Origin: a virus
Direction: 5' to 3' (one strand)
Length of the DNA: 21,589 bases
IMG/VR virus record: IMGVR_UViG_3300042876_000440
Location: 1-21,589 of that record
Every line of letters starts with the position of its first letter. The first letter of the stretch is position 1. The translations under genes were made by a program, and so were the position numbers. Shown here piece after piece: positions 7,356 to 21,589 of this stretch. The notes under the pieces were generated by a model, which saw only the letters and a list, made by a program, of their open reading frames with translations, did no database searches and was not told the origin of the DNA.

Positions 7356-7694
7356 ATGGCGAACACCGAGACGACCGCGACGACCGAGACGCCGAAGGCG
7401 CAGCCCAGCGAGAAGACGCTCGCCCGCCGCGAGAACGAGAAGAAGCTCCGCGAGAAGAAGGTGGACTACAGGGCGAAGGGCGCGGTCGTCCGCATCCTCG
7501 CGAAGGACAGCCCGAAGAAGAACGGCTCGAAGGCGCGCGAGATCTGGGACATCTACAAGGACGGGATGACCGTGGAGGACATCCTGAAGGCCGCGGAGAA
7601 CACGAAGGGCGGCGCCAGCTACGCCCGCGCGTGCATCATCTGGGACGACCGCCACGGGCACATCTCGGTCGTGGCCGGCCCGGAGAAGAAGTAG
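7356..7694 (+). CDS. Small basic protein, paralogue of 16135-16563
   Basis: The 112-residue product has no recognised function. Residues 1-35 are a Thr/Lys/Glu-rich, probably disordered tail. The C-terminal half contains IYKDGMTVEDILKAA (~66-80) and IIWDDRHGHISV (~94-105), which align with LYKNGQTVAEFVKLA and IRWDKEHGFIEL in the 16135 gene. The composition (high Lys/Ala/Glu, high GC, almost only AAG for Lys) suggests an abundant nucleic-acid-binding or virion protein, but this is inference. ATG is preceded by GGAGG four bases away. It is on the opposite strand to both terminase genes flanking it and has its own terminator, like a moron inserted in the late operon. Confidence 0.85.
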   Translation: MANTETTATTETPKAQPSEKTLARRENEKKLREKKVDYRAKGAVVRILAKDSPKKNGSKAREIWDIYKDGMTVEDILKAAENTKGGASYARACIIWDDRHGHISVVAGPEKK

Positions 7695-16134: not shown

Positions 16135-16563
16135 ATGGCTGAGACGCCTGCCGTTCCGAAGCCCGTTTCCGTCGCTACTCCCACGAAGCCGGTCTCCGTC
16201 GCCACCCCTGCCCCCGGCAAGCTCGAGGGTGCCGTCGCCGCGACGGCCGCTGCTCCGGCGAAGCCCGCCGAGGCCAGCGCCGAGAAGAAGGAGCGCAAGG
16301 GCCGCACCTCCGAGCTCTCGAGCAAGAAGATCTTCCTCGTCGAGGCGAAGATCCGCGAGAAGATGCCGGAGGGCCGCGCGGAGCTCAACCCGAAGCGCGA
16401 GGGGACGAAGGGCTACCGTGCCTTCGGCCTCTACAAGAACGGTCAGACGGTCGCCGAGTTCGTGAAGCTCGCGAGCGAGACGAAGGTCGAGGGCGAGTCG
16501 GTCGGCGGCATGGCCGACATCCGCTGGGACAAGGAGCACGGCTTCATCGAGCTGAAGGACTAA
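16135..16563 (+). CDS. Paralogue of the 7356 cassette protein
   Basis: 142 residues. A long disordered Ala/Pro/Val/Thr N-terminus contains PVSVATP twice (~10-25), then a basic ERKGRTSELSSKK segment, and a C-terminal domain LYKNGQTVAEFVKLA ... IRWDKEHGFIEL (~99-140) that aligns with the 7356 gene product. A lysine-rich tail plus a small conserved domain could mean a nucleic-acid-binding protein; this is not shown. The gene is flanked by a promoter-like sequence and a terminator, so it is a stand-alone transcription unit. It is GC-rich with strong AAG/CTC codon bias, suggesting high expression. Confidence 0.85.
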   Translation: MAETPAVPKPVSVATPTKPVSVATPAPGKLEGAVAATAAAPAKPAEASAEKKERKGRTSELSSKKIFLVEAKIREKMPEGRAELNPKREGTKGYRAFGLYKNGQTVAEFVKLASETKVEGESVGGMADIRWDKEHGFIELKD

Positions 16564-17212: not shown

Positions 17213-19225
17213 ATGCCGGATCTAATGGAGCTGGCGCGCGCCAAATGGCGTAGCTCGGGGTTGTCTGACGAACAGGCGGAAAAGCTCCAGTTTCAGGCTC
17301 TCGATAGGGAGGACGTTCGTCTTCTCGGCGGTAACTTTCAGTGCGCTCACGGTCTGAAGATTCCATACTTCGACGCTGAAGGAAATCTTTCAACCTTCTA
17401 TCGCCTCCGCTACCTTGAGCCTCTTCCTGGCTTCGCGGCACAGGCGACTAAGCCACAACGATATGTCCAGCCATCAGGAACACTCAACGAAGTGTATATG
17501 CCCCCGCTGCTCGAACATTCTTGGGCATCAGTACAAAGAGATCCAAAAGTTCCTGTCTATATTACCGAGGGGGAGCTCAAAGCAGCTGCCGGTTGTTCTG
17601 CCGGATTGGCAACTTTGGGACTTGGCGGCGTTGATGTATGGCGTTCGGCAAAGAAAGGGCTCGAAGTTCTTCCTCAGCTCGGCGCGTTTGAGTGGAAAAA
17701 CCGAACTGTTACAATCATATACGACAGCGATGCTGCAACAAACGAGAACGTCGTCAGAGCCCAGCGGCAGCTCGCCCAAGAGCTCACGGTCCTCGGCGCT
17801 ATTCCGCAAATCGCTTCTTTGCCAGCAACTGCAGAAGGTAAGAAGCAAGGACTTGATGATTTCCTCGTCGCCAATGGGAAGGAAGCTCTCCTCGAAGTTC
17901 TCGGGAAAGCACCCTCGTTCCCCGAGGCCGACGCTCTATGGGAACTTAACGAGGAGGTAGCCTACATCCGAGACCCAGGTCTTGTTGTAGTTCGATCCTC
18001 CAACCAGAAGCTTGCGCCCTCTGCCTTTGTCAATCACTCCTTCGCCAACCGGCACTACATGGAGATGATTCAGACGAAGAAGGGTACCCGCCAAGAGCGA
18101 AAGCCATTGGCGAAGCGATGGATGGAGTGGGAACATCGATTCGAACTCTCGAGAATCACGTACGAGCCTGGTAGGGAGAAGATGGTCGGTGGGAGGTGGA
18201 ACCAGTGGGCAGGATGGGGCACCTACCCGGAGGAAGGTGATATTCAGCCGTGGGTAGATCTTCTCGACTTCCTGTTTAAGAAGCAGAAGGATGCGCGAGA
18301 ATGGTTCGAGAAGTGGCTTGCCTATCCTATTCAGCACCCCGGTACGAAGATGTACACGGCAGCAGTGCTGTGGGGTGTTGAGCATGGTACTGGTAAGACG
18401 TTGATTGCGTATATCATGCGGCGAATCTACGGCGATAACTTCGTCGAGATTAAGAACAAGCACCTGAAGGGTGGGTTCAACGAGTGGTCTGAGAACAAGC
18501 AGTTCGTCTACGGTGACGAGATCACTGGAAATGACGGGAAGCGTACGGATGCAGATCTCATCAAGGGGCTCATCACCCAGGAGATCATGCGAGTCAATGC
18601 TAAGTACGTTCCTTCCTATGAAATCCCGGATTGTGTGAATTACTACCTCAGTTCCAACCATCCTGATACTGTGTTCCTAGAGGATACGGACAGGAGGTTC
18701 TTCGTTCATGAAGTTATCGGAAAGCCGCATAAAGATTTTGAATTCTACAAGAGGATTGATTCTTGGCTTAGAGGATCTGGTCCTCGTCACCTGTTTAAGT
18801 ATCTGCTTGATCTTGATCTGGCTGGGTTTGACCCTCACGCGCCTGCTCTCAACACGACGTCGAAGCAGGCGATGATTCGGGACAACAAGTCCGATATTGG
18901 TGTATGGGTTATGCGTCTTCGGGAAGACCCAGACAGCGCACTCAACCATTTCAACGAGAAGGTTCGGCGTGAGTGTGACCTGTTCACCCCGACCATGCTC
19001 TTGGAGGCGTACGACTCGAACAAAGATACGAAGGTGACAGTCAACGGACTGTCTCGAGAACTGAAGAGGTCTAGCTTCCGACAAGTCAACGATGGAAACC
19101 CGGTGCGTACGGCAATGGGTCTTCAGCGACTGTACGCAATTCGTAATTGCGACAAATGGGATAGGGCTGAGCCAAGAGAGTGTGCCGAGCATTTTGACAA
19201 GTTCTGGACTGGAGGGAAGTTCTAA
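17213..19225 (+). CDS. TOPRIM primase - SF3 helicase fusion
   Basis: 670 residues. The N-terminal half carries a TOPRIM-like primase: YITEGELKAAAG (E119, E121) and TIIYDSDAA (D171, D173), plus GLDDFL (~213-218), the pattern of DUF3854-type domains. The C-terminal half is a superfamily 3 helicase: Walker A GVEHGTGKT (~388-396), Walker B FVYGDE (~431-436), motif C SSNHPD (~480-485) and DTDRRFF (~491-497) with likely arginine finger. It unwinds DNA and makes primers at the phage fork. It starts one base after the RHH-like gene; the stop overlaps the next ATG (TAATG). No DNA polymerase is in the window. Confidence 0.9.
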   Translation: MPDLMELARAKWRSSGLSDEQAEKLQFQALDREDVRLLGGNFQCAHGLKIPYFDAEGNLSTFYRLRYLEPLPGFAAQATKPQRYVQPSGTLNEVYMPPLLEHSWASVQRDPKVPVYITEGELKAAAGCSAGLATLGLGGVDVWRSAKKGLEVLPQLGAFEWKNRTVTIIYDSDAATNENVVRAQRQLAQELTVLGAIPQIASLPATAEGKKQGLDDFLVANGKEALLEVLGKAPSFPEADALWELNEEVAYIRDPGLVVVRSSNQKLAPSAFVNHSFANRHYMEMIQTKKGTRQERKPLAKRWMEWEHRFELSRITYEPGREKMVGGRWNQWAGWGTYPEEGDIQPWVDLLDFLFKKQKDAREWFEKWLAYPIQHPGTKMYTAAVLWGVEHGTGKTLIAYIMRRIYGDNFVEIKNKHLKGGFNEWSENKQFVYGDEITGNDGKRTDADLIKGLITQEIMRVNAKYVPSYEIPDCVNYYLSSNHPDTVFLEDTDRRFFVHEVIGKPHKDFEFYKRIDSWLRGSGPRHLFKYLLDLDLAGFDPHAPALNTTSKQAMIRDNKSDIGVWVMRLREDPDSALNHFNEKVRRECDLFTPTMLLEAYDSNKDTKVTVNGLSRELKRSSFRQVNDGNPVRTAMGLQRLYAIRNCDKWDRAEPRECAEHFDKFWTGGKF

Positions 19226-19458
19226 TGGACATCAATGCGATTCTCGACATGAACCGTAACGCGCAGGCCCTGGCTCGTGAGCTGCAGGATTCCCTGCCTA
19301 TCGGTCTGCGCTGTGCCGTACTACTCTTCACCGAGGGTGCCGGGCCGGTTGCGTTCGCACATACTGCGGGGAAGGGCCCGAAGATGCTTTCGGTTCTGGA
19401 GCAGACGGCGCGGAATCTCAAGGAGAAGGACAAGGATTCCGGACTGGTGGTGATGTAA
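19225..19458 (+). CDS. Small unknown protein after primase-helicase
   Basis: 77 residues, ATG overlapping the primase-helicase stop and its own stop overlapping the next ATG. A helical N-terminus (AILDMNRNAQALARELQDSL) leads to strands (CAVLLFTEGAGPVAFAHTA) and a lysine-rich helix. No family recognised; tight coupling suggests a replication accessory protein. Confidence 0.75.
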   Translation: MDINAILDMNRNAQALARELQDSLPIGLRCAVLLFTEGAGPVAFAHTAGKGPKMLSVLEQTARNLKEKDKDSGLVVM

Positions 19459-19937
19459 TGGCTGACACGACGCCGTTCCAGAGAGCTCGGGCTAGGTTCA
19501 ACGTCTACGCGGGGATGGATAAGCCGGTCCTCCCAACCAATGAAATGTCGGCAGCCCAGGTTCTTCTAGCGAGGTGGGTCAACGAGAAGGTGAAGCACAG
19601 TCTCCCGAACTCTGTCGAGAATGTGCTCGGTATCACGGAGGAAATGGGAGAACTAGAGGAAGTCAGGGAGGAGATGCTGTACCGTAAGGCTCTTCAAGGT
19701 GTCGGGAAGCTCGCACACTACGAGCTGAACGTCAGCCAGAAGCGCCGGTACTCGAAGCTCAGCGAGGAGGAGCTCCGCGCTCTCGAGGCGGACTGTGTCG
19801 CAGACATCGGAATCTTTCTGATGAACTTCTGTACTTCCCGTCGCCTGGACTTCGGAGCCTTGCTACTTGGTACCGCGGAGCAGGTGACTCGGAGGGATTG
19901 GCTCGCTTTCCCCGAGGATGCTCATGCCAGAAAGTGA
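19458..19937 (+). CDS. MazG-like nucleotide pyrophosphohydrolase
   Basis: 159 residues, all-alpha. VLGITEEMGELEEVREEM contains the E-E-x-x-E metal motif (E61, E62, E65) and ADCVADIGIFLMNFC supplies D112 and D116, the pattern of MazG-type NTP pyrophosphohydrolases (typically EExxE...ExxD; here the second motif is DxxxD, as in several phage MazG-like proteins). It would hydrolyse (d)NTPs to (d)NMP and PPi. Next to base-modification genes, trimming a normal nucleotide pool is a plausible role; which nucleotide is not shown. ATG overlaps the previous TAA. Confidence 0.7.
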   Translation: MADTTPFQRARARFNVYAGMDKPVLPTNEMSAAQVLLARWVNEKVKHSLPNSVENVLGITEEMGELEEVREEMLYRKALQGVGKLAHYELNVSQKRRYSKLSEEELRALEADCVADIGIFLMNFCTSRRLDFGALLLGTAEQVTRRDWLAFPEDAHARK

Positions 19938-20070
19938 TTGTTGTGGTCACTGTGGTGATGGCGAAAACTGTGACTATGGATGTATCGCCTTCGACGATGG
20001 TGAGTGTGGCGGCTGCCCGGGCGGCGCTGATTGTACGGAGGTGAAGGATGAGCCAGACGAGCAACCTTGA
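19924..20070 (+). CDS. 48-residue eight-cysteine protein
   Basis: A complete ORF overlaps the MazG-like gene by 14 bases and the next gene by 23, and exactly bridges what would be an unusually long gap. It carries cysteines at 6, 7, 10, 16, 20, 28, 31 and 37 and a histidine at 9, and is otherwise Gly/Asp-rich and acidic. GAGG lies six bases before ATG. It could be a double zinc site, an iron-sulfur carrier or a disulfide peptide. No signal peptide is present, which favours metal binding in the cytoplasm. It was identified from the gap and the codon pattern, not homology. Confidence 0.6.
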   Translation: MPESDCCGHCGDGENCDYGCIAFDDGECGGCPGGADCTEVKDEPDEQP

Positions 20071-20920
20071 TGGCTTCCTAGCCTACATCCGAGAGCGCGA
20101 GCGTATCCGGCTCCTCCGCCTGGCCGGGGCTCCGTATCCGTGGACAACTGACCCAATTCTTGGGCAGTACAAGTTCACAAATGTGCGTAGATTCCACGAC
20201 CGTACGACACAGCGGTTCTGGGCACAGTATCAACTTCACGCACGTGCTCATCAATCCGTCGCGTTATACAATTGTGGCGTGTACCGGTATCATGGTACTA
20301 TCTCCTTCATGGAGCAGTTCGGCTGGCAAGAACAGCACGACACTGAGTACATGATTGACCTCGCCCGTAAGATGCTAGCTGAAGGTAAGCAAGTGTACAC
20401 CGGAGCGTACATCGTTACGAATGGTGGTCGGGTTGGGTTCAAGGAATCAGTGGTCGCTGAATTCCTCAAGGCCCTGGCTGAAGATGCTGAATATATCTGC
20501 CACGCAATGGAAAGAGAGGAAAGCTGGAAGACCGGATTTGAGCATCTAATCCTACTTCCTGGATTCGGCGGCCAGGGATTTATGGCGAAGGAAGTTCTCC
20601 AGGACTATCTGCTTTGGAGGCGCGCGGCCGGGCGGCGCCCGCTCTCAGATGAGACTTCCTGGACGCCTGTAGGGCCTGGCGCAAGGCGTGGGCTTAACCG
20701 GCTCGCCGGTAGGCCCCTGAGGTATCAGCAAAAGCTGAGCTTGTTTATCGGTGAAATTCGCGACATCTGGCAAAAGGTGGACCGAGCATTCGACCAGATG
20801 TACGGAGAGCACCTTACGATGCATGACCTGCAGTTCTGTCTGTGCGAGTTCGACAAGTATGAGCGAGTCCGGCTAGGGGAAGGCCGTCCTCGTTCCCGCT
20901 ACGTCCCCACGAGGCAGTGA
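20048..20920 (+). CDS. 5-hmU DNA kinase / aGPT-pyrophosphorylase-like thymine hypermodification enzyme
   Basis: 290 residues. The N-terminus reads FLAYIRERERIRLLRLAGAP, then PWTTDPIL (31-38) and YKFTNVRRFHDRTT (41-54). The order 'RERxxIxxxR, PWTxDPIL, [FY]xFTNVxRxxDRxT' is what I associate with the helical 5-hmdU DNA kinase / alpha-glutamyl-putrescinyl thymine pyrophosphorylase families. In those pathways 5-hydroxymethyluracil in phage DNA is activated by (pyro)phosphorylation and then displaced by an amine or amino acid. A later GGQGFMAKEVLQDYL and a basic end suggest a full-length protein. SD GGAGG precedes ATG. No P-loop is seen, consistent with the all-helical clades. The assignment needs a profile search. 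Confidence 0.65.
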   Translation: MSQTSNLDGFLAYIRERERIRLLRLAGAPYPWTTDPILGQYKFTNVRRFHDRTTQRFWAQYQLHARAHQSVALYNCGVYRYHGTISFMEQFGWQEQHDTEYMIDLARKMLAEGKQVYTGAYIVTNGGRVGFKESVVAEFLKALAEDAEYICHAMEREESWKTGFEHLILLPGFGGQGFMAKEVLQDYLLWRRAAGRRPLSDETSWTPVGPGARRGLNRLAGRPLRYQQKLSLFIGEIRDIWQKVDRAFDQMYGEHLTMHDLQFCLCEFDKYERVRLGEGRPRSRYVPTRQ

Positions 20921-21123
20921 TGATTAGTGATTCCGCTAAAAGAGCAGCCGACGATATTGACAAAGGAGCTAGAGAACGTGCCGAAGAAACTAGCTTCGTG
21001 AGAAAGTACAATATCTGCCCAAGATGTGCTCGGCCAGTGAGAAACACATTCTTCGGGGATCTTTTAGAGTGTAAATCCTGTGACATGTGGTGGAGCAAAC
21101 CTGAGTACGTGGAGCACTTCTAA
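20920..21123 (+). CDS. 67-residue zinc-ribbon protein
   Basis: ATG at 20920 overlaps the preceding stop (TGATG), with GAGG five bases upstream; the GTG at 20917 is too close to it. A charged helix is followed by CPRC (34-37 approx.) and CKSC, spaced C-x2-C-x15-C-x2-C, a zinc ribbon. Ends WWSKPEYVEHF. Probably a nucleic-acid or protein adaptor in the modification cluster. Confidence 0.75.
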   Translation: MISDSAKRAADDIDKGARERAEETSFVRKYNICPRCARPVRNTFFGDLLECKSCDMWWSKPEYVEHF

Positions 21124-21251
21124 TGAAGCCATTCGTTGTTTTGACTATCATGTTTCTACTTTGCCCGCTCTGGATTCCGATGCTGATTGTGATCATCGCC
21201 TTTCAGATTGCATTTGCTACCTCTGAAATTCTCGCTCAGGAGCTCGACTAA
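21123..21251 (+). CDS. 42-residue single-helix membrane peptide
   Basis: ATG overlaps the previous TAA and the stop overlaps the next ATG. Residues ~4-31 are almost entirely hydrophobic (VVLTIMFLLCP, then LWIPMLIVIIAFQIAFA), then a short acidic tail SEILAQELD. One or two transmembrane segments separated by prolines. Function unknown; small membrane peptides in phages may act in exclusion or lysis, but nothing here decides. Confidence 0.65.
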   Translation: MKPFVVLTIMFLLCPLWIPMLIVIIAFQIAFATSEILAQELD

Positions 21252-21589
21252 TGGACCTGAATATCTACATCCCGTCGAAGTCCCGTTACGACATTCAGCG
21301 TACCTTCACGCGACTCCCGCAGGGCTTGCGTGAGAAGGCACAAATTGTCGTCCCGCCGGAGGACTACGAGCCTTACGTGAGGAGATATCACAATGTTCTT
21401 CAAACTCCTCCAACAGTGCGCGGTATTGCTCCCACTCGGGACTGGATTCTCGAGCACGCCATCGAGTCCGGACAGCGATATCTCGTCATGCTCGATGATG
21501 ACGTCGTTCTCCAGAAGCGACGCGGACCAGTTGTTCCAGGAGAGAAGGCTCCTAGCATTACAAACTGTAATCCTCAGGAGTACCCTGAG
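21251..21589 (+). CDS. Glycosyltransferase-like protein, possible TET-associated type (3' end outside window)
   Basis: 113 residues before the window ends. MDLNIYIPSKSRYDIQRTF is followed by QIVVPPEDYEPY (~31-42), a 'PPTVRGIAPTRDWILEHA' helix (~53-70) and LVMLDDDVVLQK (~78-89). A Rossmann-like start, R-x-W helix and a DDD metal/nucleotide-sugar motif (82-84) suit GT-A glycosyltransferases, including the phage TET-associated glycosyltransferase (TAGT) family that adds sugars to hydroxymethyl pyrimidines in DNA. Position beside the hmU-kinase-like gene supports DNA modification. Truncation prevents confirmation. Confidence 0.6.
   Translation, partial: MDLNIYIPSKSRYDIQRTFTRLPQGLREKAQIVVPPEDYEPYVRRYHNVLQTPPTVRGIAPTRDWILEHAIESGQRYLVMLDDDVVLQKRRGPVVPGEKAPSITNCNPQEYPE

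Follow-up and report, generated by a model that had tools for sequence, protein, structure and literature searches.

The DNA of phage M6 contains 5-NedU, an amine-modified thymidine (PMC6449724), and the phage encodes as separate genes an amino acid:DNA transferase (ADDT, gp51), a kinase of family PF18748 (gp54), HMUDK_hel (gp55) and a thymidylate synthase (TS, gp58). Glycosylated thymine derivatives have a precedent in phage SP-15, which makes a sugar-bearing thymine with another gene set (PMC5977210). Clade II HTVC023P-type pelagiphages, in the available text of their description, hold a TS, aG/PT-PPlase1, a 5'-deoxynucleotidase and a putative beta-glucosyl-HMC-alpha-glucosyltransferase near the DNA polymerase (PMC9599517). 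In a 2026 Nucleic Acids Research study, 288 of 753 phage genomes had TAGT without any alpha- or beta-glucosyltransferase, and its authors suggested that these genomes encode novel transferases (PMC13216743). Here we describe a cassette that sets HMUDK_hel beside TAGT at the right end of IMG/VR virus record IMGVR_UViG_3300042876_000440, analysed at its complete length of 21,589 bases (the window) and itself a genome fragment. With a probability of roughly 0.55, we propose that it belongs to a kinase-free thymidine hypermodification in which HMUDK_hel would present 5-hydroxymethyldeoxyuridine (5-hmdU) in DNA to a glycosyltransferase, yielding glycosylated hydroxymethyluracil (hmU).

Both core genes of the cassette belong to defined Pfam families:

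20048-20920, + strand: HMUDK_hel (PF18723, formerly aGPT-Pplase clade 1), 290 aa, full length, by Pfam.
21251-21589, + strand: TAGT glycosyltransferase (PF20691), N-terminal 113 aa, cut by the contig end, by Pfam and a DDD motif.

The 290-aa protein matches PF18723 with an E-value of 7.6e-37 (127.6 bits against a cut-off of 25) over profile positions 4-277 of 281, and keeps the family columns R17, R48, D51, A120, K132, F178, G209, G211, G215, C266, E267 and K270, which are invariant in 54 sequences. The 113-aa terminal open reading frame (ORF) matches PF20691 with an E-value of 7.8e-15 (55.8 bits against 27.5; profile positions 2-96 of 205), and its DDD motif is of the GT-A type; the contig stops at residue 113. 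An earlier note on this DNA had called for profile searches with these two proteins, and both exceed their cut-offs: its glycosyltransferase-like gene is a TAGT of which the window holds only the N-terminal half. Its "hmU-kinase/aGPT-pyrophosphorylase-like" enzyme is a full-length PF18723 protein, but of clade 1, which Pfam now names the helical component of 5-hmdU DNA kinase, and not the amino acid:DNA transferase, a separate family (PF18724). ADDT, kinase and HMUDK_hel are separate genes in M6, and finding HMUDK_hel in the window is thus not enough to imply amino-acid modification.

HMUDK_hel typically shares one operon with a TS homologue and one catalytic partner, and the partner varies. 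Single-protein scans with HMUDK_hel, the MazG-like protein and the primase of the window returned no close relatives; profile scans were needed, and sampled 80 HMUDK_hel loci and 57 TAGT loci, with 140 loci fetched (L numbers are our locus labels). Profiles built from the scan matches place HMUDK_hel in 129 of the 140 loci. Its partner there is TAGT in 87, a GT-B glycosyltransferase in 33, a P-loop kinase in six and none in three (L016, which is truncated there; L024, which has ADDT and a weak match to a kinase; and L034). Among the GT-B partners, cluster GT18 matches Pfam Glycos_transf_1, and the smaller clusters c57 and c84 are GT-B-like by eye, with no Pfam match. The pairing of a sugar transferase with an aGPT-type enzyme that the earlier note described is therefore real and found again in many phages, as is its base-modification cluster in one overlapping unit.

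Kinase and glycosyltransferase exclude one another. They occur together in none of the 140 loci (Fisher 1.7e-7, dereplicated rows). PF18748 alone under-reports kinases, and a home-made kinase profile was therefore added; across whole records Pfam found kinases in four and the home-made profile matched strongly in six, all kinase-type. No P-loop 5-hmdU DNA kinase was found in the ORFs of the window, which is a fragment, in the record of sister phage L006 or in any other glycosyltransferase-type record. ADDT is absent from the window ORFs and from glycosyltransferase-type records, and is present only in kinase-type records and L024; an apparent exception in the glycosyltransferase-type phage L044 was discarded, its match overlapping HMUDK_hel itself. 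With neither enzyme accompanying HMUDK_hel in such genomes, a mixed chemistry of amino acid and sugar, in line with the earlier note's suggestion, finds no support, whereas the simpler option, glycosylation of hmU without a kinase, does.

Partner exchange has recurred during the history of HMUDK_hel. A quick tree of 87 sequences, with some long branches, requires at least 11 changes of partner state and places the kinase in five separate positions. Microbacterium phages Koji and Quartz exemplify the exchange: their HMUDK_hel proteins are 67% identical, yet in Koji a PF18751 P-loop kinase adjoins HMUDK_hel, without TAGT (L143 1364-2837), whereas Quartz has TAGT and no such kinase (L144 2390-3262, 6591-7523). 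In L189 (20620-21956), whose primase is 45% identical to that of the window, kinase-HMUDK_hel replaces HMUDK_hel-TAGT, showing that the swap also occurs inside the window's primase lineage. Bacillus phage Goe26 carries the kinase fused to HMUDK_hel in one 636-aa protein. The base-kinase genes of M6 (L142 4426-4989) and Koji (L143 1364-1969) are labelled "terminase small subunit"; their Pfam matches are HMUDK_HMUD1 and Ploopntkinase3.

Synthases beside TAGT are of the uracil type. The fetched loci contain 128 TS homologues, and we used the residue at the position of ThyA Asn177 (N177), which alignments show to be Asp in the CMP hydroxymethylase MilA, as an indicator of the base. Among synthases covering this site in the loci and five named phages, 130 of 132 have Asn, and only those of Koji and Quartz have Asp. 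In TAGT loci the count is 90 Asn out of 90, including sister phages L006 and L132, and the dCMP-type Asp occurs in none of the 90; the synthase of the window itself lies past the contig end. The TET/JBP dioxygenase (PF12851) shows the complementary distribution. It occurs in exactly seven TAGT records, all lacking HMUDK_hel, and most TAGT loci without HMUDK_hel have TET instead; none was found in L006 or in any HMUDK_hel-type record searched. TET-linked TAGT represents a cytosine route. TAGT thus pairs either with TET or with HMUDK_hel and a uracil-type synthase.

Sister phages point to what follows the window. The 53.7-kb record of L006 shares with it the primase (58% identity), the ligase and HMUDK_hel (46-47%), and continues in the order HMUDK_hel-TAGT-TS-HD 5'-deoxynucleotidase; a DNA polymerase gene lies beyond these. 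A 41.8-kb record (L132/L147) shares the primase (58%) and TAGT (49%), and also has HMUDK_hel-TAGT-TS. This order recurs in 61 loci, in 51 of which the TS starts no more than 300 bases from TAGT. On the strength of this layout, the sequence after 21589 is predicted to hold the remainder of TAGT and then an Asn-type synthase; we infer that the unseen downstream region matches the relatives. The downstream search for a TS homologue or a TET enzyme proposed in the earlier note meets the contig end in the window, but in L006 the synthase is the next gene after TAGT and TET is absent.

The predicted fold of HMUDK_hel probably resembles that of proteins that handle bases in DNA. The AlphaFold model of the window protein has a pLDDT of 94.6, and its top VIA-align match is PaMx11 gp46/PUGT, a 5-phosphomethyl-dU (5-PmdU) glycinyltransferase (PDB 8z2n; Z 11.8 over 218 residues). 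The next matches are almost exclusively helix-hairpin-helix (HhH) DNA glycosylases (AGOG, Ogg, Mag, AlkA) at Z 8-10, together with a DUF2419 queuosine enzyme; Foldseek returned nothing at E < 0.001. Because the VIA-align match list is coherent, we read the fold as probably HhH-glycosylase-like despite the low Z. Flipping of bases out of DNA is an established property of HhH glycosylases. We transfer no function from these proteins, which share 7-14% identity with HMUDK_hel, and predict from the model that HMUDK_hel is a DNA-binding, base-presenting component. The 5-hmdU kinase favours TG/TC sites (PMC6449724, PMC7653180), a preference that HMUDK_hel could carry.

These observations suggest a pathway, with the right end of the window as the opening part of a kinase-free DNA-hypermodification operon. 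The TS homologue, past the window's end but directly after TAGT in the sister phage, would make 5-hydroxymethyl-dUMP, which the polymerase would build into phage DNA. HMUDK_hel would bind the DNA and present a flipped 5-hmdU, TAGT (or, elsewhere, a GT-B enzyme) would add a sugar to the hydroxymethyl group, and the glycosylated hmU would shield the genome. Elsewhere a P-loop kinase would be the partner of HMUDK_hel, and amino-acid-type thymidines would result. A broader claim we hold more tentatively, at somewhat under even odds: HMUDK_hel may be an interchangeable base-presenting module, serving either the kinase and amino-acid route or a GT-A or GT-B sugar route, and the latter may put glycosylated hydroxymethyluracil, a dioxygenase-free counterpart of base J, in many phage genomes. 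If true, the sugar route would supply an acceptor for many "solitary" TAGTs. The partner pattern offers TAGT one concrete acceptor, 5-hmdU in DNA, and HMUDK_hel a role apart from the kinase.

Several points weigh against this pathway. The window stops inside TAGT, with its own synthase beyond the end, and the loci were sampled by similarity to the window and to the TAGT of Brevibacterium phage LuckyBarnes, a sample biased to their kind. The Z values for the HMUDK_hel fold lie under about 13, the level below which VIA-align itself advises caution with helical bundles. Koji and Quartz carry the cytosine-type Asp, so HMUDK_hel may also serve 5-hydroxymethylcytosine (5-hmC), and L087, L088 and MW202897 combine TAGT with an Asn-type synthase without HMUDK_hel, which is therefore not indispensable. 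TAGT of T6 puts a second sugar on an already glucosylated base (PMC13216743); by analogy, TAGT may not be the first transferase here.

Among the rival explanations, all improbable to differing degrees, the one we rank highest is a cytosine route, in which the window phage's synthase would be dCMP-type and TAGT would glycosylate 5-hmC as in T6-like phages. It draws on the known activity of TAGT, which is on glucosylated 5-hmC (PMC13216743), and on the pairing of HMUDK_hel with an Asp-type synthase in Koji and Quartz, but every one of the 90 synthases beside TAGT is uracil-type, those of L006 and L132 among them. Slightly less probable is a classical pathway of the M6/ViI type, with a P-loop kinase and ADDT encoded in the unseen part of the genome, HMUDK_hel serving that kinase, and the TAGT sugar placed atop or apart from an amino-acid-type thymidine. 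HMUDK_hel is indeed named for the kinase, adjoins it in M6 and is fused to it in Goe26, and the window is only a fragment; against this, no glycosyltransferase-type whole record, the 53.7-kb L006 included, has a strong kinase match or ADDT, and kinase and glycosyltransferase co-occur nowhere.

Two further rivals seem to us more doubtful still. TAGT might act on virion or host glycans rather than DNA, its place by HMUDK_hel and the synthase reflecting operon economy; the activity of solitary TAGTs is only predicted, and FkbM methyltransferases and radical SAM enzymes stand in some operons. Yet in diverse phages glycosyltransferases of two unrelated folds are repeatedly and tightly coupled to HMUDK_hel and the synthase, and the kinase is excluded from the slot they occupy. 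The least likely is that HMUDK_hel is itself a catalytic transferase, like its structural relative PUGT/ADDT, attaching a non-amino-acid group that TAGT decorates. Its best structural match, the PaMx11 5-PmdU glycinyltransferase, and the invariant polar residues R17, R48, D51, K132, E267 and K270 favour this idea, but PUGT depends on a kinase, having a phosphorylated base as its substrate, and no kinase is present here; moreover, the coexistence of HMUDK_hel with ADDT and kinase in M6 indicates that HMUDK_hel is not that phage's amino-acid transferase.

The cassette sits in a coupled, head-to-tail run of genes, all on the + strand, with TAATG/TGATG overlaps at 19456-19460, 20918-20922, 21121-21125 and 21249-21253. 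Besides the two core genes, the window holds:

17213-19225, + strand: primase-helicase (DUF3854, DUF5906; PHROG DNA primase, 3.9e-37), conserved with sister phages L006 and L132/L147.
19225-19458, + strand: 77-aa ORF heading the run, from the ORF list; no family match above cut-off.
19458-19937, + strand: 159-aa protein with a MazG-like motif, EEMGEL...DCVAD; possible nucleotide pyrophosphohydrolase, from the motif only.
19918-20070, + strand: 50-aa Cys-rich ORF overlapping both neighbours, from the ORF list; no family match above cut-off.
20920-21123, + strand: 67-aa CxxC...CxxC zinc-ribbon-like protein (68 aa from a GTG at 20917) between HMUDK_hel and TAGT, from the ORF and its coupling.
21123-21251, + strand: 42-aa hydrophobic ORF, single membrane-span-like, coupled to TAGT, read from the sequence.
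16135-16563, + strand: small protein of a family found by iterated HMM, linked by association only.
7356-7694, + strand: second paralogue of that small protein, 35% identical, by iterated HMM, linked by association only.

The primase-helicase is the replication gene that the earlier note had correctly placed ahead of the cluster. The two small metal-binding-type proteins it listed exist as ORFs (50 and 67/68 aa); neither has a family match above cut-off in profile searches, and the 42-aa ORF was overlooked. Its MazG assignment lacks profile support, from PF03819 or from other MazG models. In the motif of the 159-aa protein the two halves are about 45 residues apart and the second is not the canonical ExxD. 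Searches of Pfam, PHROG, NCBIfam and PDB sequences and a tblastn of phages gave no match for the protein. Nor was the identity confirmed by scanning viral_contigs and the relatives, by looking for the motif in 14,429 ORFs or by setting the protein against the annotated MazG of Koji. Its single-sequence fold is unusable (pLDDT 42.7), and a MazG nucleotide pyrophosphohydrolase is a motif-level guess. In 41 relatives (L012, L020, L100 and L089 among them) a member of the small-protein family of 7356-7694 and 16135-16563 directly precedes the HMUDK/TAGT cassette, and the window's 142-aa copy has no Pfam match above cut-off; the family may be part of the HMUDK_hel/TAGT system.

Some relatives add genes to the cassette. 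FkbM-type methyltransferases (L010, L061, L066, L075, L029) and SPASM radical SAM enzymes (e.g. L029) lie between HMUDK_hel and the synthase, which suggests further decoration, as methylated or rearranged sugars, in those phages. A count of 25 HMUDK-TS loci with nothing between the two genes was withdrawn, since it arose from the inclusion of TAGT-HMUDK-TS orders and from an ORF overlooked in L051, and the N-terminal extension of a 587-aa HMUDK ORF in L037 is spurious.

The window-type cassette both resembles and departs from described systems. Like M6/ViI-type thymidine hypermodification, it has HMUDK_hel near a TS homologue and replication genes, with an HD 5'-deoxynucleotidase downstream in the relatives of the window; unlike it, glycosyltransferase-type relatives have TAGT or a GT-B enzyme in place of kinase and ADDT. 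It shares the GT-A family PF20691 with TET-TAGT cytosine systems and the T6 TAGT, whereas its HMUDK_hel-type records are without TET and have uracil-type synthases. In LuckyBarnes all three core genes stand in one operon of an isolated phage, but in the order TS-TAGT-TAGT-HMUDK_hel, with two TAGT copies and a C-terminal extra domain on the TS. That domain (synthase at L002 8436-9989) resembles a small "SWRKRG" protein (cluster c10) that 59 loci carry close to the cassette. LuckyBarnes and the Koji/Quartz pair are isolated phages suited to testing the acceptor and the role of HMUDK_hel.

Co-location of TS, PF18723 and TAGT is, in the available text of PMC9599517, already published for clade II pelagiphages. 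To this we add that the partners are swapped and mutually exclusive, that kinase and ADDT are missing and that the synthases are uracil-type, together with a tree of the swaps; we did not find these in the literature examined, which leaves the field's core papers outside it, and we claim no priority. The pelagiphages have the same gene combination as the window-type cassette, which that text reads as thymidine hypermodification, with nothing stated there on kinase absence, partner exchange or chemistry. The window phage is distinct from them, and its primase, ligase and small genes are its own.

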